NCBI RefSeq assembly: GCF_037076345.1
Contig: NZ_AP024702.1
Location: 868,001 to 932,000 of the forward strand
Source: Haloferula helveola
GTDB taxonomy: Bacteria > Verrucomicrobiota > Verrucomicrobiia > Verrucomicrobiales > Akkermansiaceae
Length of the DNA stretch: 64,000 bases
Direction of reading: 5' to 3'
This document shows, one piece after another, positions 5,063 through 64,000 of the stretch; positions within the stretch are counted from its first letter, which is position 1, and each line of letters opens with the position of its first letter. The notes beneath the pieces were generated by a model, which was not told where the DNA came from, searched no databases, and saw only the letters and a list, made by a program, of their open reading frames with translations. The translations under genes were made by a program, and so were the position numbers.

Positions 5063-5088
5063 GGCGTGCGGGATTTTCCTCCGAAATG

Positions 5089-5124
5089 AAAAACGCCGGC
5101 CCCATGGAGCGGGACCGGCGTTTT
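5089..5124 (-). terminator. Rho-independent terminator of the 8.6-kb gene
   Basis: A perfect 10-bp outer stem (AAAACGCCGG / CCGGCGTTTT) with a run of T on the minus strand lies 25 bp past the stop codon at 5149. The flanking A and T runs are symmetrical, so it could act in both directions, but no plus-strand gene ends here. Confidence 0.75.
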
Positions 5125-5148
5125 AATTCGATCATGCCGGCAACCGGA

Positions 5149-8100
5149 TTACTCGGTGGCCTGCAGGCGGCCGAACAGCCGACCTCCTCCCCCGGCGGCT
5201 GCCGCATCAATGGTCGCCGTCACGCTGTTGAGCGGAGTGCCTGGCGTCACCGTGAAACTCACATTGCTGGCAGGTCCCCCGCTCGCGTCCCGCACTTCCA
5301 CTCCCGTCGGTGACGGCGTCCATGTGCCAAGGTCGGTTCCGTGCTGCACATACAGCTTCGCCGTGCCGCGGTCGGCGACCGGCAGGCAGCTGAAGTTCAG
5401 CTCCAGTCCGCCGGCGGTTTCGGTCACCGTCGGCAGCAGGCCCGCCGCGTTGGCGTCGACATTCGGATTGGCCGCACCGAGCAGGAAGGCGAGGCCGTCC
5501 TTCACCCCGTCGCCGTTGGCGTCGCCTTCGAAGGTCACGCCCGTCGCTCCGTCCAGCACCGACCAGTCCGCGAACGGATCGCCCGCGACCACCTCCGGTC
5601 CTGTCAGCACCGTGCCGAGTCCGCGGCCGTTGCTCGAATACCATTCATACTCGAGCACGTCGTACACGCCGTCGGTCACGAAATCGATCTCCGCCACGTA
5701 GTATTCCCCGTTGTTGGCCGCATCGCCGTTGCCTCCTCCGAGGACGCTGTGCGCGTCGTCGATCACGATGTCCGCACCCACGTTGTCGAGGTCGTGCAGG
5801 ATGATCCTGAGCGTCGGCGTCGAGTTATACGCGCCGTAGTAGATGTGCACCGACCCCGACGCCAGACCGCTGATGTCCACCAGACCCTTCGCTCCCTGCC
5901 AGTCCCGGTAGCCGTAGTTGCCCACACTGGCGAATCCGCTGGCGCCCGTGCCGTCGCCGGTCGCCAGATCCGCTCCGGGATCGTTCCCCGTCCACAGCCT
6001 CATCTGCTGCTGGCCGAAGCCGTCGAAGGTCACGTCGTCGGTCTCGTAGGTGATGCGCCCAGGCTCCCCGCCCTCTCCGGCGGTGCCGCTGACGCTGTTG
6101 TTGCTGTTGCCCAGCATCTTGTAGGCGATGACAGGACCGGTGTAGTTGCGCACTCCCGCGGGCTTCGGTGTCCCGGTCGGATCGTTGGCGCAGTACCAGC
6201 CCGTGCCCGGATTGTCCTCATTGACCGAGACGTGGAAGTAGCGACCCTCGCCGCTCCCCGTCGTGTTCGGATTGAGCTGCGACGCGATGGTCGTCTGGAA
6301 GTCGTTGGTAACGCTTCCCGCGTTGGCCACAGGATCGTTCACCGTCAGCGTGTTGTCCGAGGGAATCGCCGTCGTCGTGTCGAGGTCGTTGCCGTTGAGG
6401 TCCGAGATCACCGCGCTCGCCACGATCTCCAGGGTCAGGCTGCCCGACGTGCCGCCGGTCGATACCTCGACCTCGTAAACCGCGGGGTCGCCCGTGGCGT
6501 TCACGGCGTCGACGGTGACCGGCACGCTGCCGGCGCTCGCACCGAAATCGGAGGTCTCGACCGAACCCGCGTCGATCGGCTCGCTGAAGGTCACCGTGTA
6601 GACCAGGCGTCCGGAGACGTTGGTCAGGATCGGCAGCGGGTGCGTGTTGTCCGCGAAGGTCGTCACGCTCGGTGGCGTGTCGTCGATGGTGAATTCCCAC
6701 GCGTCCGGATCGGCAAGACCCGCATAGGGGTTGAGGGCGCGGTCCGTCAGCGCTCCGGCATCGATCTCGATGTGGTAGGTGGCGCTGGGCAGTCCGCCGG
6801 TCGGGCTGATCGTCAGCGTGTTGCCCGAAAGCACCACTTGGGGATCCGGGAGGGTGATCGTCGTCGTTCCCGGCGTCGTCTCATTGACGATGCGGATGTC
6901 GCCGGTTCCGATATAGATCTCCTCATCGAAGGTGGCGACCCGCTCGATGCTGCTTCCCGACGCGTTGTCGGTGGAAACCAGCAGCGGTGCGACCGTGTCG
7001 AGCGGAAGAACGTCCGCGGAGGTCGCGCCGAAGCGGAGCTCGTCAAACTCGGGAACGTTGTTCTGACCGGTTCCTCCGCGCTTGCCCGCGATGCTGATCG
7101 TATCGAAGGCGTTGTCCGCGTTGACGGTGCCGAGCTGGTCGAAATTGGCGGTCAGCGTGGCGACCACCGGCCCCAGGTTCAGGTCCTTGTCCGGAATATA
7201 CACCTCGAAAATGTCATTATCGACGGCGGTCCCGGGATTGGGATCGAACGCACCCCACGTGATCTTGCCGACCACGAGGACCGTCGATCCCTCGGGGCCC
7301 CAGGATACCCCGGAAGGGGTCCGCTTCTCGGCACCGCCGCTGCCGTCGCTGTCGTTGTTCCAGAGCTGGAGACGGTCCGAAGTGCCGTTGTTGCCCTGGT
7401 TCACCACGAAGGTGAAGCCGCTGCCGGTGTTGCCGCCGATTCGGTCGAAGCCGTCGGCACCCCCGGTGCCGAGGGCAAGATACGTCGTCCGTTCGTTGGT
7501 CGACGCGCTCGTGTCCGGATGCTTCTGAATCAGCGCGCTGACCCAGAGCGTGGCTCCGTCATTCATCAGGCCCGCGTCGGTCAGGGTGCTGCCCGGGCTG
7601 ATCTCGTTGTTGATGATTCCGTTGCCCACACCCGGGTTGGCGGTGGCACGCCCGCCCTGGTAGCCGAGCTTGCCGTAGGTCAGGCTGCTGTCCGCCACGA
7701 GCGCTTCGGCATTCCACGTGCCGGTAAGACCCAAACCGGGAGTGTTCCCGCTCAACGTCGAATCCAGGTCCGCAAACGGCTCGTAGACGAGTGGGAGCCC
7801 GGTGGCAGCGTCGGTGGTCGCGGACTCCAGCGGTGACAATCCGGTTTCGTTCTGGTCCGGCGACTTGTCGCGGGCCTTGACCTGGTACGAATAGGTGGTC
7901 GACGGATCCAGACCGGTATCGATGTAGACCGCGCTGTCCTGCCAGCCGCTGTCGTCACCACCCGGGTTACCGGTGGTCTCCTCAAAGTAATACTCCACCC
8001 CGCTCGGGTCGCTCGCCGTGCTGGCGGTCATGGTGATCGTTGTATCGGAGGTCGCGGCGGGAACCGACACCCACGTCATCGGGTCAGGTGTCGGCGGCAT

Positions 8101-11100
8101 GTTGTCCACGACGGTCGTAGTAGCGGACTCGAGTGACGACACTCCGGTTTCGTTGTTGTTGGACGACTTGTCGCGCGCCCTGACCTGATACGAATAGGTC
8201 GTCGACGGATCCAGGCCGGTGTCGATGTAGGTCGCGCTGTCCTGCCAACCGCTGTCGGTTCCGCCGGGATTGCCGGAGGTTTCGTCGAAGTAATACTCCA
8301 CTCCGCTCGCGTCACTCGCCGTGCTGGCGGTCATGCTGATCTGGTCTTCGCCCAGCGCAACAGGCACGCTTGCCCAAGTCATTGGATCGGGTGTCGGCGC
8401 GGTGGTGTCATTGACGTCGACCACCACGTCGGCATAGGTCGCGCCGAAGCGGATTTCGTCGACCTCGGGAACGCCCAGATTCGGACGACCACCGGTGAAG
8501 GAGATCGTATTGAAGGCATTCGCGGGATCCGCCACGCCAAGCTGATCGAAATCCGCGGCAATCGTGGAAATCGGTGCACCTTGAACAAGGTCCGTGCCGG
8601 GCAGATAAAGCTCGAACACATCATCTTCGACGCCGAACTCCCCCCATGTGATCTTCCCAACCGCGAGGAAAGTCGCGTTGTCGGCAACGGTCACTGTCGA
8701 GCCTCTCGTCGCCCCACCGGTGCCATCGCTGCCGTCGTTCCAAGCCTGGGCCGTAACCCCGCCCGGACTGACCTTGCTCACAGCCACGGTGAAACCGCTG
8801 CCCGCATTGCCTCCGATCCGGTCGAAGCCGTCGGCGTTGCCGGTGCCGAGAGCAAGATAGGTCCGGTTGTCCGTCGTGGGAGCGGGATCGGAATTGTAGT
8901 TCACGATCAGCGCGCTGAACCAAAGGGTGGAGCCGTCGACCATCAGGCCGGCATCGGTCAGGGTGGTGCCGGGCGAGATTCCGTTCTGTTGGAACTGCCC
9001 ACCTCCGGTCGTCACCCGACCGCCCGAAGTTGCGAGGCTGCCGTAAGACAAGCTACCCGGCGAAACGGCCGACGCCGCGCTCCAGGTGCCTGACAAGCCG
9101 AGTCCCGGAGTATTGCCGTTGAGGGTGGGGTCAAGATCGTCGAAGGGCTCGTAAACCAACGGCCCGGGTGGAGGGGGGGCGAGAGTGGTCGCGACAGTCG
9201 GCGCCGAAGGAGCGGTCTCGGTCGCCGCTACCGCCTTGTCGCGCGCCTTGACCTCATACGTGTAGCTGGTCGATGGGTCGAGGTTGACGTCCGTCCATTT
9301 CGGACTGTCCTGCCAACCGCTTTCGTGGCCGCTGATGGTGGTGTTGGTGAAGTAGTATTCCACTCCGCTCGGGTCACTCGCAGTCGTGGCAGTCATCGTG
9401 ATGACGCGGCTTGAGAGAGGCGTTGGAGCAATGGCCCAAGTCACCGGGTTTGGCGTCGGCGCGGTGGTGTCAGCCGGAGTGGTCGAAGTGGATTCCACCG
9501 TCGACCATGCGGTCTCGTTCTGGTCCGGCGACTTGTCCCGCGCCTTGACGCGGTAGGAATAGCTCGTCGAGTTGTTGAGTCCGGTGTCCAGGTAGGTCGG
9601 ACTGTTCTGCCAGCCGCTGTCATCCCCACCTGGATTGCCGGAGGTTTCCTCGAAGTAGTACTCCACCCCGATGATGTCGGTCGCGGTGGTTGCGGCCATC
9701 GTGATCTCCCCCTCGCCTGCAGCGGTCGGCGTGGTTGCCCAGGTCAACGGGCTCGGGTCCGGTGGTGTGGTGTCTCCACCGTCCAGCAGCACCCGCATGT
9801 GGGTGGCCATCGACTGGCCGATCAGGAAGTAGCTCTCCGCGTTTCGATTCCAGTGGTAGCCTTGGTCGGCAGGTGACTCCGAGGCTTCCCGCCAGAACTC
9901 CCGCGTGTCGACGACCGCGACATTGTCCTCAAACGCCGGATACTTGACGAAGTCCTCCATCGCCAGCTGGGCATCCATCAATGCCAGTGCATTGGTGCCG
10001 GTTTCGCCAGGCCCGCCGATGCCGGTGGTGGCAATGACGAAGGGAATGTCGGCCCCGCTCGGGTGGATGGCGGCCAGATCCGTGCGCACGTCATTGATGA
10101 AATTCTCCATGTTGGCCTCGTACTCCGCCACCGCGGTTCCGTTGACGCGGTCATTCCATCCCTGGTGCCATCCGAACCCTGCAAGCTCGTAGCTGCCGAT
10201 GGTCGCGTAATCCGGGAAGTAGGTCGACAGGTTGGCGAGCGCATCAGTGACATCACTGATCATCTGCTGGTACCAGAATCCCTGATCCCCGGCCGCCACG
10301 GGCGGATTCACGCTCCACCCGGAAGTGGGGGGACGGAAATCGACATACAGGCTCTTGCCGCCCCAGGCGGTCTTGATGAGCAACACCTGCTCCCCGAGAT
10401 AGTCGCCCAATTCCACCCCGAACTGCAGTTCCGGGCCGATGGTGTCGGCTGCGACACCGTAGCCTGCGGAAAGTTCGCCATTCAGCAAGGTCGTGCCGCC
10501 CCGCTTGTAGGAGATCCAGACATCGTCCCGCAAGGCCCAGCTGGCACCGTCCTTGAGATGCCCGTAGTTGGCCGGATCGTTGGTGACGAGGTAATCCAGC
10601 GTCCCTTGGGAGAAGGCCGGGTTCATCTCACCATGCCCCTCCATGTTCGATTGGCCCGCAAGGATGAACACCTTCAGGGGCGGTTGCGGGGCCGTTCCGG
10701 TGGTCGTCCCGGAGGACTCCTCGGAAGGCGCCGAAGTGTTCTGCGCCGCGCTCTTGTCGCGGACGGTCACGGTATAGCCGTAGGTCGTGCCCGGCGTCAG
10801 GCCGGTATCGGTATAACTCGGGCTGTCCTGCCAACCGCTGTCGTTTCCTCCTCCGGAAGTACAAGTGAAGTAGTACTCCACACCCGACGGGTCAACCGCG
10901 GTCATCGCGGTCATGGTGATCGACGTATCGCCGGCGGGTGCCGGGGCGCTCGACCAGATCGCGGGATCAAGGAAGGGCGGCGTCACATCGGGGCCGCCCG
11001 AATCGACGAGATCAACGGTCACCGTCTCGTAGGCTTCGGTGAGCCCGCGCGAGTCGGACATCGTCACCTCGAACTGATAGGTTCCCGTCGTTCCATCGAA

Positions 11101-48400: not shown

Positions 48401-50008
48401 TCAGCGTCCGGCTGAACCCGAACCGACAGCCGCTTGATACTGAAGGCTGACCTCGGTCCCGGTGATCGGTCGGCTCCAGAGCGCGACCTCGTCGACCCAT
48501 CCGCGGAACTGGACGAGATTCTTCTCCAAAGTGGTGAAGCCGGATCCGGTCTTGCCGAAGCGGACGTTGATCCCCGACAGGCTCTTGCCCGGGCGGACCC
48601 TCGACTCCTCGTCGCGCGCCGCCAGCTTGCCGTCCACGTAAAGCTCCACCGCACCGGGACCCCAACTCGCCGCCACGTGATGCCACTGGCCGTCAGCCGA
48701 ACTCCTCGATGACGACAGAAGCACATCGCGATCCCCCGCTTCCATGAAGAACTGCACCCGACCCGATTCCGAAAGGTAGGCGTGCATTTCCTCCTGAGGC
48801 CCGAGCCCGCGCCCCTGGTTAACGCCGGCATACCAGAGCACCTCCGCCTGGCCGATGTCCGGATTGCGCCGGAACCAGAACGAGACGGAGCCTTCCTTGG
48901 GTGACACCCCCTCGGGCGAGTCGAGACTGTAGAGAAGCGAGCGGTCGCTGTCGGCGGGCAGAAACGCCCCGCGGTTGTCCTTCGCGAACCCGTCGAATCC
49001 CGAAGCCGGCCTGACACCCGCCGCAGCCGGGTCGACCGATCCCGCGTACATCCCGGTGGTTCCGCCCTCGACCTCGTTGGCTGCCTCTCCGACCACCTTC
49101 TCGTCAAGGCGCCAGTACCCGCGCGGGGCCTGCCCCATCACGGTGGTGGCGTAGGTCGGCCCGGAATTCAGCAGCGCGGGAAGCCCGGGGAAAGGATCGG
49201 CAGCAAGCGGCACTGTCGTGCTCCTACCGTCCGCCTCGAACAAGATGCCGGTCGTTCCTGCGAGCACCTTGCTCCGGCTGCCGTCCTTGCGGAAGCGGGC
49301 CTCGACGATTCCCTCGATGACATGCAGTTCCGCCTGAAGATCATCGCGCACCCGGACTCCGAAACGCGTTCCGATATCTACGAAATCCATCGTAGGAGTG
49401 ACGACGCGAAGCGGCTCCGCTCCATCGCCGGTATCAGCCCACAGCCAGCCCTGCTCGAGTTCCGGCTCCTCCAGCTTCGGAAAGCGGACGAAAGCCGGCC
49501 CCTGGATCACGAAACGCGTTCCGGACTCCAGATCCACCGTCAGGGTCCCCGACGACACCGTGAGCGAGCATCCTTCTTCCACGACTTCGAGTGCCCCGTC
49601 CGCCGTCTCGCCTGCCTTCGAGATCGACCATGCGCTGCCTTCGGACGCGGCGAGCGGAACCTTCCTCGGATCGGGCTGGCCGAACACCACCAACCACGCG
49701 ATACCCGCGAACAGCATGATAACCGCAGCGGCAGCGAGCACCGAATAACCGAGCACCTTCTTCTGCACCCGGGCACCCGGCAGCATCGGCAGCGTGCCTT
49801 CCTCCTTCTTCGTCTCCGCCTTGATCTGCAACAGGGCCGAGAGCTCGAAGTAGGAAAGATAGAGCGATCTCGCCTGTGGTGACTCTTCGAGGATCCCGAA
49901 CAGCTCCGCTTCCTCCTCTGGCGAAAGGGCGCCGTTCTCGAAGTCCCCGATCACCCGCCAAAGCGAATTCGAAGTGACCTCGGTTGGATGGGGATCCTGC
50001 TCGCTCAC
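48401..50008 (-). CDS. FecR/LamG-type membrane protein coupled to a sigma factor
   Basis: A 535-residue protein. An N-terminal anti-sigma-like cytoplasmic segment (SLWRVIGDFENGALSPEEEAEL) is followed by one transmembrane helix (about residues 88-110), a FecR-type domain (about 120-260, with GTRFVIQGPAFVRF and MDFVDIGTRFGV) and a C-terminal LamG/concanavalin-like domain (about 320-535, with GSVSFWFRR, HHVAASW and VDEVALWSRP). It probably senses a periplasmic or surface state and passes it to the sigma factor. The GTG at 50008 has a near-perfect AAGGAGGTG site 6 bp upstream and overlaps the sigma-factor stop, so the two are translationally coupled. The longer frame to 50200 merely reads antisense-like sequence through the sigma gene. 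Confidence 0.88.
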   Translation of the reverse strand: MSEQDPHPTEVTSNSLWRVIGDFENGALSPEEEAELFGILEESPQARSLYLSYFELSALLQIKAETKKEEGTLPMLPGARVQKKVLGYSVLAAAAVIMLFAGIAWLVVFGQPDPRKVPLAASEGSAWSISKAGETADGALEVVEEGCSLTVSSGTLTVDLESGTRFVIQGPAFVRFPKLEEPELEQGWLWADTGDGAEPLRVVTPTMDFVDIGTRFGVRVRDDLQAELHVIEGIVEARFRKDGSRSKVLAGTTGILFEADGRSTTVPLAADPFPGLPALLNSGPTYATTVMGQAPRGYWRLDEKVVGEAANEVEGGTTGMYAGSVDPAAAGVRPASGFDGFAKDNRGAFLPADSDRSLLYSLDSPEGVSPKEGSVSFWFRRNPDIGQAEVLWYAGVNQGRGLGPQEEMHAYLSESGRVQFFMEAGDRDVLLSSSRSSADGQWHHVAASWGPGAVELYVDGKLAARDEESRVRPGKSLSGINVRFGKTGSGFTTLEKNLVQFRGWVDEVALWSRPITGTEVSLQYQAAVGSGSAGR

Positions 50009-50547
50009 GCGGCACCTCCTTCCGCGAGATGGGTCCGGCGGCGAATGCAGTGCCTCAGGATGCTCCGGATCCGATGGAGCGAAACCCGCACGCTGTTGCT
50101 GGTGCGGCCCATTTCCTCCGCCAGCTGGCCCGGCTTGGCACCGGCCAAATGCCGTCGCAGGACGAGCGCCCGGTCTTCGGGACGCAAGGATTGGATGCAC
50201 TCGCCGAGAAACTCGGAACGCTTCTCGATTCCCTCGAAGCCTTCTTCGGCCGCCTGCTCCGCCAGCCGGTTGAGCAGTTCCTCGGGCATCGCCGACTCGC
50301 GACGACGCTTCTGGTCACGCCAGTAGGCCATGACGCGGAAGCGGGCCACCGAGAACATCCATGCCTTGAACTCGGTCCCCGGCTCGAACTCGTCGCGCTT
50401 CTGCCAGATCACCAGCGACGTCTCCTGCATCACGTCTTCCATGTCGGTCCGTCCCGGCATCAGGGAGACCAGGAACGCCCGCAAGGCGTTCTGGTGCTTC
50501 ACCAGCAGTTGGACGATCTCGTCGTCTTTGGAACTTCTTGGATCCAT
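50005..50547 (-). CDS. RNA polymerase sigma factor, sigma-70 family (ECF-like)
   Basis: A 180-residue extracytoplasmic-function-type sigma factor of the subgroup found in Verrucomicrobia and Planctomycetes. Region 2 is visible as DVMQETSLVIWQKRDEF and EFKAWMFSVARFRVMAYWRDQKRRR. Region 4 is ALVLRRHLAGAKPGQLAEEMGRTSNSVRVSLHRIRSIL. It directs RNA polymerase to a limited promoter set. The stop codon overlaps the GTG start of the FecR/LamG gene (GTGA), which is probably its regulator. It is divergent from the PEP-CTERM gene at 50707, across a 160-bp region that may carry its target promoter. Confidence 0.92.
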   Translation of the reverse strand: MDPRSSKDDEIVQLLVKHQNALRAFLVSLMPGRTDMEDVMQETSLVIWQKRDEFEPGTEFKAWMFSVARFRVMAYWRDQKRRRESAMPEELLNRLAEQAAEEGFEGIEKRSEFLGECIQSLRPEDRALVLRRHLAGAKPGQLAEEMGRTSNSVRVSLHRIRSILRHCIRRRTHLAEGGAA

Positions 50548-50706: not shown

Positions 50707-51447
50707 ATGAGACTCAAAAACCTGGTTCTCCCCTTCATTGCCGGACTCATCCCGCACTCACTCAGCGCCGCCATCACCTACGTCGATGCGGTCCACGGAG
50801 CCTCGGGCAACACCTACGAGACCGGCGGTTCGGCCGGGGACACCGCCTGGCTCAACCTCACCGACAGTTCGGACGAGGATCAGGATCAATGGCGCCTCCG
50901 CACGGGTGCGAGCCGCGGGGTCGGTGACACCATTTTCCACGCCCGCGACAACGGCAGCCAGGACGGGGGCGACACCATCCCCGAACTCACCATCGAGCTG
51001 CCGGGTCTCGCCGACGGCACCTACAACATCTACGTCTTCTTCTGGGACGACCCCAACTCGGTCAACAACACGCAAAACATCGACGCCGGCCTGACCTCGG
51101 GCAACCTGACGACCTACGGCGCCGACAATCCGCTCATCAACGGGGAAGCCGCAACCGTCGCAGCCCTGGCATCGAGCTACTCCTACTCGGGAACCGATCC
51201 CTCGACGGCCACCCTGTTCAACACCTGGAATCTCCACGCGGCGCAGGTCGGCCAAGCGGTCGTGAGCGGCGGATCGACAGTCCTGGTCTATGTCGACCAT
51301 TCACAACCGACGACCGGCCTGACCTCAACCGCCCAGGTCCGCACGCTTTTCGACGGCGTCGGCTACGAGCTCGTTCCGGAACCCTCGACGGCCCTTCTCG
51401 GAGTTCTGGGCGCCTTCACCCTGCTCATCCGCCGACGCCCGCGATGA
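50707..51447 (+). CDS. PEP-CTERM protein carrying an unrecognised ~190-residue module
   Basis: A 246-residue exported protein. The signal peptide MRLKNLVLPFIAGLIPHSLSA is followed by one complete copy of the module shared with the two downstream genes: ITYVDAVHG at the start, DQWRLRTGASRG, YNIYVFFWDD in the middle and VGQAVVSGGSTVLVYVD ... RTLFDGVGYELV at the end. The C-terminus is an exosortase signal (VPEPSTALL, hydrophobic helix, RRRPR). The ATG at 50707 is used although an out-of-frame ATG lies 4 bp upstream. It probably forms a transcription unit with the next two genes and stands divergent from the sigma factor. Confidence 0.85.
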   Translation: MRLKNLVLPFIAGLIPHSLSAAITYVDAVHGASGNTYETGGSAGDTAWLNLTDSSDEDQDQWRLRTGASRGVGDTIFHARDNGSQDGGDTIPELTIELPGLADGTYNIYVFFWDDPNSVNNTQNIDAGLTSGNLTTYGADNPLINGEAATVAALASSYSYSGTDPSTATLFNTWNLHAAQVGQAVVSGGSTVLVYVDHSQPTTGLTSTAQVRTLFDGVGYELVPEPSTALLGVLGAFTLLIRRRPR

Positions 51448-51508
51448 CGATTGCCAGTCCGGAGGGCAGACCGATCCAAACCCTGCCTCCCCGGTTGAAT
51501 CGATACCC

Positions 51509-54406
51509 ATGAAGTCTGGATTCGCGATCGCCCTCGCCCTCTCCCTGGCCACCACATCTCACGCAGGTGTGACCTATGTGGACGCCACCCTGGCCAACAC
51601 CGACAACGCCTCAGGAGGAGGCGATGCCACGTGGGCCGATGGCGATGACGGAACTACTGGAGGAACCGTAGCCGACGGCTCCGCCACCAATGACGGCCTG
51701 TGGCGCTTTCGATCGGCCCAGGGAAATGGCGGCATCTGGGAAGCCACGAGCGGCAGCGCCGTGGCGGAGGACTGCGCCGAGATCGCGGTATCGGTCGCCG
51801 TTCCCAATGAACTCTACAACGTCTACGTTTTCTACTACCCGGTCACCACGTCCGGCGACTTTCCGATCCGGGCCGGTTTTTCACCTTCTCCGAATACCAA
51901 CCCGATCTTCGACCGGGCCGGAGCCAAAGGAACCGCCGGACAGGACGCCGCGACGCTGAGCTTCGATGTCGCCCCGCCGAGCGGTGGCGAGAGCCGCACG
52001 CTGCTCTACGGCCTGATCGGACAGGTCGAGGTGACCGACGGGTCGCTGGAGGTCTTCATCGACGACTTTCCCGCCTCCTCCACGGGCACTTCCAACGACC
52101 GGACCTGGTTCGCAGGCATCGGCTACGAAGTCGGCACACCGCCACCCGCGCCGGATCCGCCCGACCAGATCGAGGGCACGCTCATCTCCATCGACCCCGA
52201 CGCCGCGTGGACATGGTACACCGACGAACGGGCGATCATCGACTTCCCCCGCCTGATTGCCGGAGGAGTTCGGGGAAAGGACTGGTTCGGCTCGGTCGGC
52301 GACATCGTCGGCACCCAGTTCGATCTCACGACCGGCCAGCGGACGCCCTTTCTCCTCGGCCCTCCACCGATCAAGGAACCCTCCAACATCGGCTCGGGCG
52401 ATACCGCCGAGGACAAGGACGATCACAACACCGCGGCGTTCATCAGGCTTCCCGACGGCCATTACGTCAGCGCCTGGTCATCGCACTCGGAGAACAACGA
52501 GATCCACATCCGGCGTTCGACCAACCCCGGCGACGCGACCGCATGGGACCCGGAGCAAATCTACGAGCGAAGTGTGGCCGATGGAGCGAGCGAGCCCAAC
52601 GACGTCACCTATCACAACCTGATCTACCTCAGCGCCGAGGGCACCGGACAAGGGCGGCTCTACAACTTCTTCCGCAACGATCTCGCCGACAGTTGGGACC
52701 GCTGGTTCATCTACTCGGACGATCTGGGTGTCACTTGGAACTGGGGCGGCAGGCACACCGGTCAGGACGACCCGGAAATTCGGCCTTACCCGAAGTATGC
52801 CACCAACGGCGTCGACACGATCTGGTGGATCTCGTCGGAGGACAACTCGGGGCAGAACATCTGGTCGGGCTACATCAAAGACGGCGGCAACCACAAGATG
52901 GACGGATCGATCGTGGACGCCGACATCTTCGACAACAGCGCCTCACCGGTCGGCTCCTACACCTCCGTCATGATGAGTGGCGACCTCGACGACGGGACTT
53001 CGATGGAAGAACTGTGGCCGCGCGACCTCGAGTATGACGCCGCGGGCAATCTCGCCGGGACATGGCGGGCGAATGGCAACGGATCGAGCACCGACCTCCG
53101 CCAGTTCTACGGCCACTGGGATCCCGTAGGCGGGACATGGATCGTGAACCGCCTCTGTTTCACCGGCGACTTCAGCGTGACGCTCCAGCAGGACGGCAGC
53201 ACTCCCCACCGCGGCACGCCGCTTTCCGCCATCAACCCGAAGAATGCCAACGTCTGCTTCTTCAGCGCGAATGCCGATCCGGCGACCGGTGCGCCATTGG
53301 TTTCGCAAGCCGACGGCCGGCGCAACTTCGAGATCTTCCGCGCCGAAACCAGCGATAGCGGAGCGACCTGGCAGTACACCCAGATCACCCGCGATTCGTC
53401 GTGCCACAACTTCCGCGTGTCGGTCGTGCCATGGGACGAGGACAATACCTGCGTCATGTGGATGCGCGGCTATTACGACCGCTGGTTCTTCAACGCCAAC
53501 AACAACGGCTGGGACTGCGCGCTCGTCGCGTGGCTGGACCGTCCCTCCGAGTCTTCCGCGCCACTCCTCCACTACACCGACGCCGATCTGACGAACACGA
53601 CGCTGGCCGACGGGAGCCCGCTTACGACCTACACCACCAGCAGCAGCAGCGCCGGAGCAGACGACAACCAGTGGCACCTCCGGACGAACCCGTCGCTTGG
53701 CAACAACGGCACGATCTTCACCGCCAACGAATCCGTTCCGTATGCCGAGGACTGCCCGGTTCTGAAGACGACCGTCCCGGGAGTGGCTCCGGGAACCTAC
53801 GACGTCTTCGCCTGCTTCTGGTCTCTCTCCAACGACGACTTTGACCTCATGGCCGGTCTGACTGAGGACTCGCTCGCCTTTTTCCAAAGGAAGTCCTCCC
53901 AACACGCGCCGGCTTCGGAGTTCGACACCACGGTGCTCGACTCGGAATCCAGCCGTCGCCTTTACCGAGGCTATGTCGGCCGGGTTACTCTTCCAGCCGC
54001 CGGATCGGTCGAAGTGTTCGTCGATCAGTTCGCCAACGACGCCGACACCAACAGCCGGACTTGGTACGACGGCATCGCCCTGCAGCAGGTCGGCAGCGAC
54101 GACGATGATTCGGACAGCGATGGGCAGGCCGACTCCGACGAGGTCGTGGCGGGAACGGATGCATTCGACGGCGGTGACTTCTTTGCCATCGACACTTTCA
54201 GCGAACCGGACGGCGGACCGGTCGACCTCGACCTGTCCGGAAAAGCTGGCCGCATCTACCAGCTCTGGCGTTCGACCGACCTCATCACCTGGACCCCCGT
54301 CGGCCCCGCGACCGATCCGCTCGCCGCCGACGGACCCGTCTCGCTTTCCGATCCATCGCCTCCGGCCGTCCGGGCGTTCTACCGCGCCAGCGTAAGCCTT
54401 CCCTGA
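51509..54406 (+). CDS. Secreted BNR-propeller protein flanked by two copies of an unknown module
   Basis: A 965-residue protein with signal peptide MKSGFAIALALSLATTSHA. The first ~190 residues and a stretch near 690-860 are two copies of the module found in the neighbouring genes (N-terminal copy: VTYVDATLANTD ... LWRFRSAQGNGGIWEA ... VYVFYYPV ... DDFPASSTGTSNDRTWF). Between them, about 225-680, lies a BNR-type (PF15892-like) propeller starting WTWYTDERAIIDFPRLIAGG; two Asp-box motifs (SDDLGVTW and TSDSGATW) are visible. Related propellers act as polysaccharide lyases or carbohydrate-binding units, but catalysis cannot be assigned here. A short calcium-binding repeat (DSDSDGQADSDE) and a verrucomicrobial C-terminus follow. 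It lacks PEP-CTERM. Confidence 0.85.
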   Translation: MKSGFAIALALSLATTSHAGVTYVDATLANTDNASGGGDATWADGDDGTTGGTVADGSATNDGLWRFRSAQGNGGIWEATSGSAVAEDCAEIAVSVAVPNELYNVYVFYYPVTTSGDFPIRAGFSPSPNTNPIFDRAGAKGTAGQDAATLSFDVAPPSGGESRTLLYGLIGQVEVTDGSLEVFIDDFPASSTGTSNDRTWFAGIGYEVGTPPPAPDPPDQIEGTLISIDPDAAWTWYTDERAIIDFPRLIAGGVRGKDWFGSVGDIVGTQFDLTTGQRTPFLLGPPPIKEPSNIGSGDTAEDKDDHNTAAFIRLPDGHYVSAWSSHSENNEIHIRRSTNPGDATAWDPEQIYERSVADGASEPNDVTYHNLIYLSAEGTGQGRLYNFFRNDLADSWDRWFIYSDDLGVTWNWGGRHTGQDDPEIRPYPKYATNGVDTIWWISSEDNSGQNIWSGYIKDGGNHKMDGSIVDADIFDNSASPVGSYTSVMMSGDLDDGTSMEELWPRDLEYDAAGNLAGTWRANGNGSSTDLRQFYGHWDPVGGTWIVNRLCFTGDFSVTLQQDGSTPHRGTPLSAINPKNANVCFFSANADPATGAPLVSQADGRRNFEIFRAETSDSGATWQYTQITRDSSCHNFRVSVVPWDEDNTCVMWMRGYYDRWFFNANNNGWDCALVAWLDRPSESSAPLLHYTDADLTNTTLADGSPLTTYTTSSSSAGADDNQWHLRTNPSLGNNGTIFTANESVPYAEDCPVLKTTVPGVAPGTYDVFACFWSLSNDDFDLMAGLTEDSLAFFQRKSSQHAPASEFDTTVLDSESSRRLYRGYVGRVTLPAAGSVEVFVDQFANDADTNSRTWYDGIALQQVGSDDDDSDSDGQADSDEVVAGTDAFDGGDFFAIDTFSEPDGGPVDLDLSGKAGRIYQLWRSTDLITWTPVGPATDPLAADGPVSLSDPSPPAVRAFYRASVSLP

Positions 54407-54425
54407 ACCAAAATACCCACCTGAC

Positions 54426-56846
54426 ATGAAACTACCCGTCCTTGCAGCCCTGACCACGACGCTGATCACCTCGCTATCCGCCCAAACTGTCCTCGAGTGG
54501 GCGCTTTCCGAGACCAGCCCGAATCCGGATGTCGACGACACGCCGTCGCTCGGTGGCACGCTCGCCGTGCCGATCGTCGGGGACGCGTCCGACGGTGATG
54601 CCGACTCATCGGCCCTGATCGGGCGCTTCACACCGGTCACGCTGGCCGCCGAAAACGACTCCATCACGATCAGCTACGATGTGATCTTTATCGGAGGCTT
54701 CGGGTCAGGCGCGGCCAACGCCGACTTCCGCTGGGGGCTTTTCAACAGTCAGGGAACCAGCTTCACCGGCGAAGAGGCCGACCTCTCGGGCTGGACCGGA
54801 GCCTACGCTTTCAACTCGGGTTCCACGATCAACGACGCCGACATCTACGTCCGCGACACCGTCAACACGGACCGCTTCTACGTCAGCGCCGGGGCAACGG
54901 ACATCACCGGCGCTTCGGACTTCGCCAACCAGGACTTCGATTCCGACGGTGTGATCTATACCGCGACCCTGACCATCACCCGCCTGGCCGGAGACGTGAT
55001 GGACATCGCCGCCACCCTCACCGGTGACGACGGCTACAGCTTCAGCCTTGGCGGCCAGGAAACCGTAAACGCCGAGTTCACCTTCGACCGGATCGGATTC
55101 TGGATTAACTCGCTCTCGGCGGACCAGGTCGCCTTCAAGGAAAGCTCCGCTCCGGACTCCACCGACGGCGACTCCATCCCCGACCTTGAGGAAGTCCGCT
55201 GGTTCACGAACCTGACGGCCGCCGACGACAGCTCGAACTCGGATGGCGACGCGCTTTCGGATCTCGATGAGATCACGGTGACCTTCACCGACCCGACCGA
55301 TGCCGGCGACCCTCCGCCGCAGTTGCCCGCCCTGTTCGTCGACTTCAATGCCGACGGCACGGCCGGACAGATCGGACCCAACTCCGAGACCGACTACGTC
55401 GCCTACACCGCCCCTCACGAATCGAACTCGATCGACGATCCCGCAGGCCTCGACTTCCCCGTCTTCGGCACCACGGTGAACCTCGCAGTGGACTACACCG
55501 ACGACGATGACTTCACGGCGTTTCCCGTGACGGTCAAACAGATGATCGGCCGCGACAACACCGCCACCGCCGCCTACGACGGGACCATGGCCGAACTGAT
55601 GCGCGACTGGGTGGGAATCGACTCTCGCGCTGCGGAGGGCGGCAACGGCCCGGTCGGCAACGCGTTCGGAACCCCGACCAACATGACCTTCACGCTCACC
55701 GGAATCCCGGCCGGCGACTACGAATACCGCGCCTACCACCACGACGTGGCGAACATCGAGGGGAATTTCGAACTGACGATCACGGATGCGACCCGCACCA
55801 ACACCTCGCTCGGCAATTTCCAGATGACCGCCAGCGCACCCACGGAGGGCAACCCGGTGTATGACGCCACCGGCAACAAGGGCACCGCGGGAGTCGATGC
55901 GGGCACACTCACCTTCGCAGCCGGTGAGGAACCACCAACCGGTGGTGAAACACGGACACTCCTCGGTGCCAACATCGGACAGGCCGTCGTGTCGGGAGGA
56001 ACGCTCGAAGTCTACCTCGACGACTTCCCCGCATCCCTGACTGGAACTTCCAACGACCGCACCTGGCTCCAGGGCATCGGCTACATGTCGACCAGCGGAT
56101 CGGAGATCACCTATGTCGATGTCACCCTGCTCAACACCGACATCGTCGGTGGCGGTGCCGACTCCCTCTGGGCCGACGGCGACGACGCCACGACCGGAGG
56201 CACGATAACGGACGGCTCGGCGACCAACGACGGTCTGTGGCGCTTCCGATCCGCGCAAGGCAATGGCGGCATCTGGGAGGCCACCGGTGGCAGTTCCGTC
56301 GCGGAAGACTGCGTGGAGATCGTCACCAGTGTCGCGGTCCCCGATGACACCTATGACGTTTATGTCTTCTACTACCCGGTCAACGGCACGGGCGACTACC
56401 CGGTCAGGGCCGGACTGACGAGTGGCGCCCCGGTTCCGTCCAATCCGGGAACCGGCAACCCACCTTCGGCCCTGGCCTCGACCCTCACGATTCCCTTCAC
56501 CTCCGACGGAAACCCAGTCGTCTTCACCTACCGCGTCTATGAGGAACCCGGTAGCGAAGCCCTCAGCGTGGTGGGCGTGAACGGATTCGAAATCACCGAG
56601 GCGGTTGCCGGCGGCGACCTACAGGTCACCTCCATCACGAAGGTCGGCAACAATATCACCCTCACGTGGATTTCGGCGCCCGGAGCCAATTACGACATCA
56701 TGGCCGGTATCGACCTCGTCGGCTTCCCCACCCTCGCCGCGGACAACATCGCGTCGCAGGGAACCACCACCACCCACACTTTCGCCGTGCCTGCCGGCCT
56801 CCTGGCGGAACCTGCCGTGTTCTTCGTCGTCCAGGACGCCCCGTGA
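54426..56846 (+). CDS. Secreted multidomain protein with rearranged module halves
   Basis: An 806-residue exported protein (signal peptide MKLPVLAALTTTLITSLSAQ). Its first ~230 residues are beta-rich with no recognised family. A calcium-binding-type stretch (STDGDSIPDLEEV, SNSDGDALSDLDE) follows. Residues about 300-555 contain a variant first half, then the second half of the shared module (GTAGVDAGTLTF, GETRTLLGANIGQAVVSGG, DDFPASLTGTSNDRTWL). Residues about 560-665 hold the first half of the module again (ITYVDVTLLNTD, LWRFRSAQGNGGIWEA, VYVFYYPVNG). The order of halves is therefore reversed relative to the upstream gene. It starts 20 bp after that gene, so they are co-transcribed. The C-terminus is a typical verrucomicrobial beta-sandwich end without PEP-CTERM. 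Confidence 0.83.
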   Translation: MKLPVLAALTTTLITSLSAQTVLEWALSETSPNPDVDDTPSLGGTLAVPIVGDASDGDADSSALIGRFTPVTLAAENDSITISYDVIFIGGFGSGAANADFRWGLFNSQGTSFTGEEADLSGWTGAYAFNSGSTINDADIYVRDTVNTDRFYVSAGATDITGASDFANQDFDSDGVIYTATLTITRLAGDVMDIAATLTGDDGYSFSLGGQETVNAEFTFDRIGFWINSLSADQVAFKESSAPDSTDGDSIPDLEEVRWFTNLTAADDSSNSDGDALSDLDEITVTFTDPTDAGDPPPQLPALFVDFNADGTAGQIGPNSETDYVAYTAPHESNSIDDPAGLDFPVFGTTVNLAVDYTDDDDFTAFPVTVKQMIGRDNTATAAYDGTMAELMRDWVGIDSRAAEGGNGPVGNAFGTPTNMTFTLTGIPAGDYEYRAYHHDVANIEGNFELTITDATRTNTSLGNFQMTASAPTEGNPVYDATGNKGTAGVDAGTLTFAAGEEPPTGGETRTLLGANIGQAVVSGGTLEVYLDDFPASLTGTSNDRTWLQGIGYMSTSGSEITYVDVTLLNTDIVGGGADSLWADGDDATTGGTITDGSATNDGLWRFRSAQGNGGIWEATGGSSVAEDCVEIVTSVAVPDDTYDVYVFYYPVNGTGDYPVRAGLTSGAPVPSNPGTGNPPSALASTLTIPFTSDGNPVVFTYRVYEEPGSEALSVVGVNGFEITEAVAGGDLQVTSITKVGNNITLTWISAPGANYDIMAGIDLVGFPTLAADNIASQGTTTTHTFAVPAGLLAEPAVFFVVQDAP

Positions 56847-61058: not shown

Positions 61059-64000
61059 TCACGGGACCTCGTTCACCTGCAGGCGGGCGAACCTCGCCTT
61101 CTTGCCGTTCGGCAGCATCGCGGGATACGCAATCTTCACGACTTCGTAGTCCGGGTCGGCCGTCGAGTCGGCCACGAAGGCAGGCGTTGCGCCACTGTTG
61201 TACCAGACGCTGAGTTCGTTACTGAACTGCGCGGTGTAGGTGAGACTTCCGGATGTGCCGTGGTCGTCCCGACGCACAAAGACGTAGTCAATCGTGATGC
61301 CGGGCCCCGCGGTAGTCTGGATGATCGGGAGACCATTGACCGACCCATCCGGGACGAGCGACACGGCATCACTGACATTCGGATTCGTGCCGAACGCGAA
61401 CTCCAGCAGGTTGGTGAGCGGATCTCCATCCGGGTTCTCCGTAGGAAGACCAGGATCGGGAGTGAAGCCTGAAGCCCATTCGTCGTAGGGACTGAGCGCG
61501 CCGGTTGAATTGAGCTCCAGATTGTTGCCGTCGACCTCCAGCACATAACCGGCAATCGGCGAGTCGAGCGCCGGAGTGCCGGTGAAACCGCCGGAGGCGG
61601 ACATCAGGACGTAGCTCGCGAGAGTTGGCGTGCCCGTGACCTTTACCGTGCCGTTCGTCAGGTCGACCGAAGCCGTGGACGTGGTCGGCGAGCCGAGGAT
61701 GAACCCGAGCGAGGCGCCGCTGGCCACGGTGATCGCCGAGGCCTGGCTGCCACCGACAAGCGCGAGCGTGCCTTCGTTGACGCTGGTCGCACCGATGTAG
61801 GTGTTCACGCCGCCCAAGGTCACCGTGCCGGAACCGAGCTTCGTGACGGCGAGGTCAACCGTGGCTTGGGTAACGTCTCCGGTAACGGTGGTCGATCCCG
61901 ACCCGTTGAACCTGAGAACCGGAGCGGCGTTGGTGGAAGGAACGTCGACACCCGCCACGATCAGCGCCGCGCCGTTGGTCGTGGCGATGTCATTCTGGAT
62001 CGTGTGCGTCGTGCCCCCGGTGGACAGCGGAGCGGTCAGCGTCCCGGCATTCAGGCTGACACCGTTGGCACCAGTGAAGTTCAACTGCCAGTTGCCGGCC
62101 GTCGATGACGTGGTCAGGTTGCCGATGGTCAGAGTATTGCTGCCGGTCCCGCTGACGCGGCCCACGTCGATGGTGGCGCCGGATGCGGAGTTGTTGATGT
62201 TGTATCCGGTTCCGCCGACGCCAAAGGTGACGCTCGCGTCGTTCCGCAGGCTCAGGGTTCCGTTGCCTTGGATGGTCGGGCCCGTGGTATTGAGATTCCC
62301 GATCGCATATCCCAGAGCACGCTCATGGGTCGCGATCAGGGTGCCATTGCTGATTTCGAATTTGCCGGAACTCTCGACCGGGCCACCCAGCGTCCATGTG
62401 CCGCTACCGTTCTTGGTGAGGGCGGCGAATGCGAACGGAAGGCCCTGGGAGATTTCCCCATCACCGCTACCGATCAGCTGGAGGGTGGTCGTATTGTAGG
62501 TTCCGCCAACACTGGTGAAGGCGCTGGTGAACTTCAGCAGCCCCGTGCCCGAGGCGTCGATGATCCGGCTGGTGTTGGCACCCAACTGCACGTTGACCAC
62601 CCGGTCGGTCGTTTCGCCGCTGCCGATGTAGCGAAGCGTGGCACCACCCTGGACGTTGGTCGGACCACCGAGGTCGATGGTGCCGTTGGAGACGGTGGTT
62701 GGAGCTCCCAGCGAGCTGCTCGCCATCAGCGGAGTGCCGCCGTTGACGCTGTTGAACGAGGAAACCTCGAGCACCCCGGCGCCGCTGGTGGTTGAAGGGG
62801 CGATCGAAGTCCTGCCGGTGTAGGTATTGCTCCCGCTGAGGGTCAGCGTGCCGTTGTAGGACTTCAGGAGGGCGCCGTCGCCGCTGATCACGCCACTGAG
62901 GGTCTGGCTCGCATTCGTGGAGATCCAGAGAAGTCCACCCGCATTGATCAGGATGTTGCCCGCGTAGTCACCGCCCGCCCCTCCCAGCTTCGCTCCGTTG
63001 GCGTTGTTGTTCGTGCCGATCCGCAGGGTGCCGCCGTTGATCACGGTGTCGCCGGTGTAGGTGTTGACGCCGTTCAGCACCAGCGTTCCGCTCGAGTCGA
63101 TGTTGCCGTTGTCGGTGGACGCCGCCGCGTCTCCGGCTTTCACCAGGCTGACCGCTCCACCGTTGTCCACGATCGGGGTTGATGCGGTGATCACTTGGGA
63201 GCCGGTGGTCACGTACAGTTGCCCTCCGCCAGTCGGAGTGGTGAGGGAACCGGTGCCGCTGAGGGTGAGCAAGCCGCTGCCACCGTTGAGCAAGCCGTAG
63301 GTCTCCAAGGCATTCGATCCGAGATCCAGCGTGTTGGCCGCACCGGAGAAGCGCAGGGTGTTCACCGTCCGGTTTGCCGTGAGAGCGGTGGCGGCATCGA
63401 AGTTGACGTTGTCGGCAGACGCCCACGTCGTCTCGTCGTTGTTCGCCCCGGCACCCAGAGAGGTGACGAAGTCACCGCTGTAGACCGCGTAGTCCGTCTG
63501 GCTGTTGGGAGCCGTGCCCGAGGTCGCCCACGGGCCGACGATCTGGCCGGCCCCTGTCGTGCCGGCACCGGTGACGACAATCATGTTTTTGTTGCCAGAA
63601 GTCTCCGGGCCCGTCGCTCCGGCCGAAAAGGCCAGCGATGCGGTCCCGTTCCGGGTCAGCCCGCCCAAGGTGAGTGTCTGATCACCAGCCGCGGTCTGGT
63701 TGGTGGTGAGGTTGACGTTGAACGCCCCGCTGTTGACGGTGGCACTGCCGACCGATTCGGCGAAACTGTTGGCGCCTGCGGAGTTCTCCCACCAGATACC
63801 GCCGCCACCGGCCACCGTGATGGCGGCGCTGTTGATGCGGTCCACGGTGTTCTGCCCGTTCGAACTGACCATGCGCAACGTGCCGCCGCTGGTGAGGTTG
63901 AGAGCGCTGGTGTTGCTGATCCGACCGTTGGCACCGCTCAGCGTGATGCTGCCGGGGGCCGTGACAAGGTAGGGACTGGTTCCACTGTAAGCGTTGTCGC
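61059..64000 (-). CDS. Autotransporter-type beta-strand repeat protein, 5' end beyond the window
   Basis: At least 980 residues, cut off by the right edge: the frame stays open to base 64000 with no stop, and the first possible start inside the window (TTG at 63878) is not credible. The body consists of passenger-associated transport repeats, each ending in a Gly-Thr-Leu turn: LVLNGVNTYTGDTVINGGTL, LTLSGSNTYTGRTSI, LTKNGSGTWTLGGPV, VTLGGVNTYIGATSVNEGTL. Such repeats fold as a right-handed beta-helix and are usually surface-exposed. The C-terminus (DGDPLTNLLEFAFGTNPNVSDA ...) is the type seen in verrucomicrobial secreted proteins; no autotransporter barrel domain is present, so export must use another route. 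Confidence 0.9.
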   Translation of the reverse strand, partial: DNAYSGTSPYLVTAPGSITLSGANGRISNTSALNLTSGGTLRMVSSNGQNTVDRINSAAITVAGGGGIWWENSAGANSFAESVGSATVNSGAFNVNLTTNQTAAGDQTLTLGGLTRNGTASLAFSAGATGPETSGNKNMIVVTGAGTTGAGQIVGPWATSGTAPNSQTDYAVYSGDFVTSLGAGANNDETTWASADNVNFDAATALTANRTVNTLRFSGAANTLDLGSNALETYGLLNGGSGLLTLSGTGSLTTPTGGGQLYVTTGSQVITASTPIVDNGGAVSLVKAGDAAASTDNGNIDSSGTLVLNGVNTYTGDTVINGGTLRIGTNNNANGAKLGGAGGDYAGNILINAGGLLWISTNASQTLSGVISGDGALLKSYNGTLTLSGSNTYTGRTSIAPSTTSGAGVLEVSSFNSVNGGTPLMASSSLGAPTTVSNGTIDLGGPTNVQGGATLRYIGSGETTDRVVNVQLGANTSRIIDASGTGLLKFTSAFTSVGGTYNTTTLQLIGSGDGEISQGLPFAFAALTKNGSGTWTLGGPVESSGKFEISNGTLIATHERALGYAIGNLNTTGPTIQGNGTLSLRNDASVTFGVGGTGYNINNSASGATIDVGRVSGTGSNTLTIGNLTTSSTAGNWQLNFTGANGVSLNAGTLTAPLSTGGTTHTIQNDIATTNGAALIVAGVDVPSTNAAPVLRFNGSGSTTVTGDVTQATVDLAVTKLGSGTVTLGGVNTYIGATSVNEGTLALVGGSQASAITVASGASLGFILGSPTTSTASVDLTNGTVKVTGTPTLASYVLMSASGGFTGTPALDSPIAGYVLEVDGNNLELNSTGALSPYDEWASGFTPDPGLPTENPDGDPLTNLLEFAFGTNPNVSDAVSLVPDGSVNGLPIIQTTAGPGITIDYVFVRRDDHGTSGSLTYTAQFSNELSVWYNSGATPAFVADSTADPDYEVVKIAYPAMLPNGKKARFARLQVNEVP

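Follow-up and report, generated by a model that had tools for sequence, protein, structure and literature searches.

Three adjacent genes in a 64,000-nucleotide stretch of the Haloferula helveola genome (positions 868,001 to 932,000 of contig NZ_AP024702.1, here called the window) encode exported-looking proteins that share one module, and the question raised by this locus is what the module is and how one of its copies came to lie in swapped halves. Three complete copies (M1, M2a and M2b) and one copy as two swapped halves were found across the three neighbouring proteins P0001, P0002 and P0003, which are encoded on the same strand and all have signal-peptide-like starts when judged by eye. 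The swapped halves lie inside a second domain, X, which they split. The account that is considered fairly probable as a whole combines a module resembling carbohydrate-binding modules (CBM-like), a lyase-like P0002, a PEP-CTERM partner in P0001 and a half-swap of an M2a-type module inside X. The features are as follows (aa, amino acids; ORF, open reading frame; pLDDT, predicted local distance difference test; i-Evalue, independent E-value).

50707..51447, + strand: P0001, 246 aa; signal-peptide-like start (by eye), one module and a PEP-CTERM tail
50773..51375, + strand: module copy M1 (P0001 aa 23-223); E 2.4e-62 with a profile including M1 itself; AlphaFold2 pLDDT 89.7
51509..54406, + strand: P0002, 965 aa; module, BNR_4 propeller, module and tail
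51569..52132, + strand: module copy M2a (P0002 aa 21-208); closest relative of both swapped halves
52172..53551, + strand: BNR_4 (PF15892) propeller region of P0002; 39.4 bits, cut-off 27.3
53564..54091, + strand: module copy M2b (P0002 aa 686-861); BLASTP and profile match
54426..56846, + strand: P0003, 806 aa; N-terminal region of no known family, X split by the permuted module, and tail
55335..55841, + strand: X_N, the N-terminal part of domain X; FVDFN strand; profile positions 3 to about 154 of 216
55842..56084, + strand: M3C, the module C-half (P0003 about aa 473-553); model positions 97-176
56085..56105, + strand: linker of 7 residues from M3C to M3N
56106..56426, + strand: M3N, the module N-half (P0003 aa 561-667); model positions 1-96
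56436..56606, + strand: X_C, the C-terminal part of domain X; profile positions about 155-216; i-Evalue 6.4e-5

A module family across three adjacent genes

BLASTP comparison of the copies, with each E-value computed against a small set of six sequences, showed that M2a matched the two halves joined at E 5e-90 to 1e-82, M2b matched M2a at E 3e-15 to 5e-14, and M1 matched M2b at E of about 3e-13 and M2a at E 3e-8 to 5e-8. M2a shared 73% protein identity with the swapped N-half and 64% with the C-half, whereas whole-copy pairs involving M1 or M2b were 25-33% identical, all at E < 1e-7. The high protein identity described in the initial annotation therefore holds for M2a against the swapped halves and not for copies involving M1 or M2b. 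A DNA repeat search matched parts of M2a and M3 at 73-78% identity, and a synonymous divergence of about 1.1 between M2a and both halves agreed with the earlier remark that codons differ between copies. Among 64 copies, one column each of A, W, Y and G was invariant, and columns of D, N, R, G, R and D were nearly so. The motifs YDVYVFYY and DDFPAS, which had been given as hallmarks of the module, were marks of the M2a/M3 subgroup and not of the family. The recurrence of the module in three exported proteins was borne out. The region given for it ends at 56420, and the swapped halves lie within a larger split domain that runs from about 55335 to 56606. Overall, the initial observation of the module was mostly right and its interpretation partly so.

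A first profile (A1) of 11 own-genome copies was searched over 288 related genomes at E 1e-5, with at most 11 candidates scored per genome, so that its counts are lower bounds; it matched 28 of the 288 genomes, the own genome counted in, with at least 85 matches. The module was present in 38 of the 44 stretches that were read (43 fetched loci and the window). A rebuilt profile gave 79 matches in these stretches, 69 of them in normal order and covering 93% or more of the model. The remaining ten partial matches came from P0003 (2), a stop-broken copy in L085 (2), L105 (2), L103 (1) and L099, L120 and L122 (1 each), with a broken frame or a contig end in L105 and L103. The 64-copy alignment (A3) was made from these 69 near-full copies after weak ones from L098 (2), L114 (2) and L120 (1) were left out. 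In addition, a scan of named genomes, which detects close relatives only, found four loci, in an uncultured Verrucomicrobia, a Verrucomicrobiales (LH_M34), a Phycisphaeraceae and a Pontiellaceae bacterium.

A profile and database search had been put forward as the check on the module. With the 64 copies, it gave no matching NCBIfam family at E 0.01 and eight Pfam families at E up to 0.1, all weak, the best being GH101_dom-5 (E 0.0013, 3 of 64 copies) and others including fn3 (E 0.024, 3 of 64) and CBM_4_9 (E 0.05, 1 of 64). CBM_35 and CBM_6 were not among these eight families. Scans of the three proteins and five single domains placed neither the module nor X above any Pfam cut-off, and no paper on this module was recognised from titles and the starts of abstracts in the open-access literature. 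On these searches the module is an unnamed and new family, of a kind (CBM-like binding modules) that is already known.

The swapped copy inside domain X

In P0003 the C-half of the module (model positions 97-176) stands before the N-half (1-96), and the two are exactly complementary at position 96/97 with no gap or overlap. The permutation is thus one of sequence order, and the earlier suggestion of a circular permutation or recombination at the module midpoint is supported at that level. The linker of 7 aa between the halves compares with 6-8 aa in six tandem-module proteins (L092-L096, L101). The nearest relative of both halves was M2a, followed by its counterpart in genome G096 (68% and 62% identity), and other copies scored far lower among the best 14 matches listed for each half. 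The two halves had synonymous divergences (dS) from M2a of 1.12 and 1.08, which places their copying at roughly the same time, and ratios of nonsynonymous to synonymous divergence (dN/dS) of 0.18 and 0.26, which indicate purifying selection on the swapped halves. The arrangement was not found elsewhere among 144 relatives or 384 genomes of the class by match spans, in two overlapping sets with at most 7 and 4 candidates scored per genome and matches not each read. G096 has another M2a-like copy, at L085:9278-10006, which a single TAG stop interrupts; the ORF beside it matches X weakly and ends in a PEP-CTERM signal.

The permuted order had been recognised from the start, but not that the block is embedded in domain X and splits it. 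The X profile has 216 positions; X_N reaches about position 154 and X_C begins at about 155, on either side of the module halves. The X_N match (i-Evalue 1e-47 over profile positions 3-176) overran at its end into the module C-half, and the X_C alignment (39% over 76 columns) had its first dozen columns inside the module N-half. X was unbroken in 13 near-full copies from eight stretches (the copy of L087 being weak), including a 1837-aa protein of the same genome (L023, ORF 4486-9996, with X at aa 935-1187) that has three modules and a BNR propeller, and its profile matched in 34 of the 288 relatives. AlphaFold2 prediction of the swapped region, which follows the structural check proposed at the outset for whether the halves are separate domains, gave a pLDDT of 53.9 and a predicted template modelling score (pTM) of 0.37, too poor for use. 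It was made on an alignment (A5) of 39 rows (the query, 24 module C-halves, 2 N-halves, 12 X_N parts and no X_C), which a script had picked for correct placement from 137 candidates and which is not a neutral sample.

The preferred explanation of this order is a permuted module nested in X. The halves of an M2a-type module would have been exchanged by recombination at model position 96/97, and the block of C-half, linker and N-half would have lodged in X without visible loss on either side. One way to this order, with both domains left complete, would be a single joining with X of a piece that spans just one period of the module and was either excised from a tandem pair or circularised.

P0003 could instead contain two hybrids in tandem, one of X_N and the C-half and one of the N-half and X_C, if X and the module are distant relatives that were cut comparably. 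The two junctions share a single equivalence (X154 to module 97, module 96 to X155), and the domains would be contiguous, which makes nested folding unnecessary. Comparison of the two profiles with hhalign aligned columns 60-97 of the module with columns 117-155 of X, a strand region that surrounds a GLPAGTY-like motif, at E 0.026, but this match was not significant (probability 1.9%). The module/X profile comparisons in general gave E 0.02-0.03 with a probability of about 2%, and the first was made while the X set still held the chimeric P0003 row. The cuts fall about 4 residues past the aligned strand in the module and about 20 in X, in comparable places for which a shared loop is not established, and this lowers the weight of the hybrids and of the crossover described below. 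A single insertion into one X domain accounts for this sequence too. Two hybrids are considered doubtful, and the nested permuted module is favoured over them on parsimony only.

A related and rather unlikely version is that two distantly related lectin-like domains swapped halves by one crossover in a comparable loop and became two working hybrid domains. A one-repeat piece of a module tandem, or its circle, would have crossed once with X to give X_N, C-half, N-half and X_C. If so, these bacteria would have a means of building new surface lectins by joining half-domains in a single crossover.

Fold, propeller and gene context

The AlphaFold2 model of M1 on 64 rows (pLDDT 89.7, pTM 0.89) was nearly all beta and was predicted as a beta-sandwich. 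Its VIA-align matches were led by GH26-CBM35 (Z 9.2) and an alginate-binding CBM (Z 9.0 over 163 of 197 residues), at an identity of about 10%. Further matches included xanthan lyase, GH115 and other domains at Z 8.0-8.5, as well as a mannan esterase, CBM61 and CBM36. The view of the module as an unnamed extracellular binding domain remains the best reading, given the absence of an NCBIfam match, the weak Pfam matches and the lectin-like beta-sandwich prediction. On the predicted fold and the gene context, the module is probably a polysaccharide-binding, CBM-like beta-sandwich of exported proteins, so far mainly of Verrucomicrobiota.

In these stretches, which come from related lineages and are not independent, 39 module ORFs exceed 450 aa, and 24 of them carry a BNR propeller. 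Pfam BNR_4 (E 0.001) matched 22 of 23 scanned propellers, and the propeller of P0002 was above the gathering cut-off. The residues invariant in the propeller alignment (His85, His105, Tyr147, Arg168 and Tyr206) correspond to His 306, His 326, Tyr 368, Arg 389 and Tyr 427 of P0002, with a spacing of 0, 20, 62, 83 and 121. BNR_4 also contains PL25 ulvan lyase (PMC13193363) and FoRham1, an L-rhamnose-alpha-1,4-D-glucuronate lyase (PMC8377490), and the corresponding FoRham1 residues are given as His85, His105, Tyr150, Arg166 and Tyr202, spaced 0, 20, 65, 81 and 117. The resemblance, drawn from spacing alone and not from a residue alignment to a lyase, is suggestive. P0002, a secreted BNR_4 propeller protein, would probably act as a lyase or related enzyme on a uronate/rhamnose polysaccharide, and it could be held on its substrate by one module on each side of the propeller.

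The C-terminal signal of P0001 scored 16.4 bits with TIGR02595, above the cut-off of 16, and 18.5 bits with PF07589, under the cut-off of 20.7; its end shows a VPEP motif, a hydrophobic stretch and a basic end. P0001 may hold the same polysaccharide, or the enzyme P0002, at the cell envelope. A small module ORF with PEP-CTERM, as called by a pattern made for this analysis, stood directly upstream of 10 of the 39 large module ORFs (the window, L085, L086, L089, L090, L091, L099, L100, L102 and L106). Other upstream PEP-CTERM ORFs were small with a weak X match in two of the 39 (L087, L122) or had neither module nor X in three (L021, L094, L114). Overall, the gene context points to polysaccharide use, with adhesion as the less likely role.

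Several results weigh against the account built on polysaccharide binding. Comparison of the propeller with the PDB, as a single sequence and as a profile, returned no ulvan lyase, the best profile match being at E 0.0038 among sialidases and one designed protein. No module ORF with PEP-CTERM stood directly upstream of 29 of the 39 large module ORFs, and 24 of the 39 had no PEP-CTERM ORF there at all. Foldseek matches of the module were weak, with two Cry5B toxin chains in the top two rows (E 6.9e-4 and 7.7e-4), followed by GH115 and then by CBM35 at 1.7e-3. A Z near 9 at 10% identity may reflect a common fold only, and Eph-receptor and Cry-toxin sandwiches also reached Z 7.6-8.2, so the fold alone is no proof of sugar binding. 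Finally, fibronectin type III was matched in a profile search of PDB sequences (E 3.7e-5), with 70 of 180 positions covered. A fibronectin type III identity was rejected as a local strand motif because of this short span, and kinship with the Cry toxin or Eph receptor was not accepted because the fold is common and the identity about 10%.

It is considered unlikely that the module binds protein instead of sugar, as an adhesion or pairing domain through which the secreted enzyme is tethered to its PEP-CTERM partner. The matched modules on a large protein and on the small protein directly upstream, in the ten cases above, agree with pairing, as do a small X and PEP-CTERM ORF beside larger X ORFs in L115 (L115:4585-5523) and the lack of a separate upstream module and PEP-CTERM ORF in all six fusions of two modules with a BNR propeller (L092-L096, L101). 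However, the nearest folds are carbohydrate-binding modules, the 29 large module ORFs lacking such a partner count here as well, and the fusion pattern comprises six cases from related genomes, with a module-less PEP-CTERM ORF upstream in L094.

Divergent from P0001, on the minus strand at 48401-50547 of the window, lie two genes, one for an extracytoplasmic function (ECF) sigma factor (Sigma70_r2, r4_2) and one for a FecR protein with Laminin_G_3 at its end. Both gene types occurred in 9 of the other 37 stretches with the module and in 0 of 6 stretches with X but no module, a tally over stretches of different length that does not amount to a test. In one of the nine, L123 (4916-6520), the FecR protein (29.1 bits, cut-off 24) ends in the module (ORF aa 352-529, i-Evalue 9e-37). 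In this one case, an anti-sigma-type protein that terminates in a binding domain would fit a ligand sensor.

Elsewhere, three adjacent genes with four modules were seen at L022:2545-9469, the first of them encoding a module protein with a BD-FAE esterase domain at its N-terminus (97.1 bits, cut-off 26.8). The C-terminal tails of P0002 (54089-54406) and P0003 (56601-56834) matched other exported-looking proteins of the same genome and of relatives, and are perhaps sorting or secretion tails. The window also encodes, on the minus strand at 61059-63878, a long protein of repeated glycine- and threonine-rich strands, which we take to resemble autotransporter-associated repeats.

Implications and comparison with known systems

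It is very improbable that the swapped halves are a functionless relic, whether of decay or of misassembly: the arrangement was not found in other genomes (by match spans of the best few candidates per genome) and the stop-broken M2a-like copy of G096 shows that such copies decay, but the window sits in a genome of one 5.68-Mb contig, the dS of about 1.1 means that this is not a misjoined M2a copy, and the dN/dS ratios with an open frame of 806 codons indicate constraint, part of it possibly older than the swap.

The module is a recurrent and so far unnamed part of exported proteins of Verrucomicrobiota, namely enzyme-like propellers, PEP-CTERM proteins and one FecR-type regulator, and this distribution suggests that enzyme, envelope and sensor may recognise a common ligand. 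P0003 is encoded beside M2a, its closest relative in normal order, and the pair provides a natural, old and constrained half-swap in which one nested domain can be set against two hybrids, and P0003 is a natural example of the cutting and rejoining of protein domains.

The module resembles CBM35-type modules (GH26-CBM35 3zm8 and 2wz8, and the alginate-binding CBM 8zqf) in its predicted beta-sandwich (Z 8.4-9.2) and in its attachment to exported proteins with enzyme-like domains. It is unlike them in sequence, with about 10% identity and only the weak Pfam matches to CBM_4_9 (1 of 64 copies) and GH101_dom-5 (3 of 64). P0002 is like the BNR_4 lyases PL25 and FoRham1 in Pfam family, and its invariant His, His, Tyr, Arg and Tyr have a spacing roughly similar to that in FoRham1, but it differs in its new flanking modules and in the lack of a PDB sequence match to these lyases. 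P0001 shares its start, VPEP motif, hydrophobic stretch and basic end with PEP-CTERM sorted proteins (TIGR02595; PMC1569441), and differs in bearing the same binding module as a protein encoded by the neighbouring gene. Among FecR regulators with a lectin-like end, the single protein of L123 carries the module where the FecR protein of the window has LamG. Finally, circularly permuted domains are known in carbohydrate enzymes such as MalS (PMC10223318). P0003 is similar to these in the swapped order of domain parts, but differs in that its permuted block interrupts another domain as well, and in that the closest unpermuted copy is encoded by the neighbouring gene.

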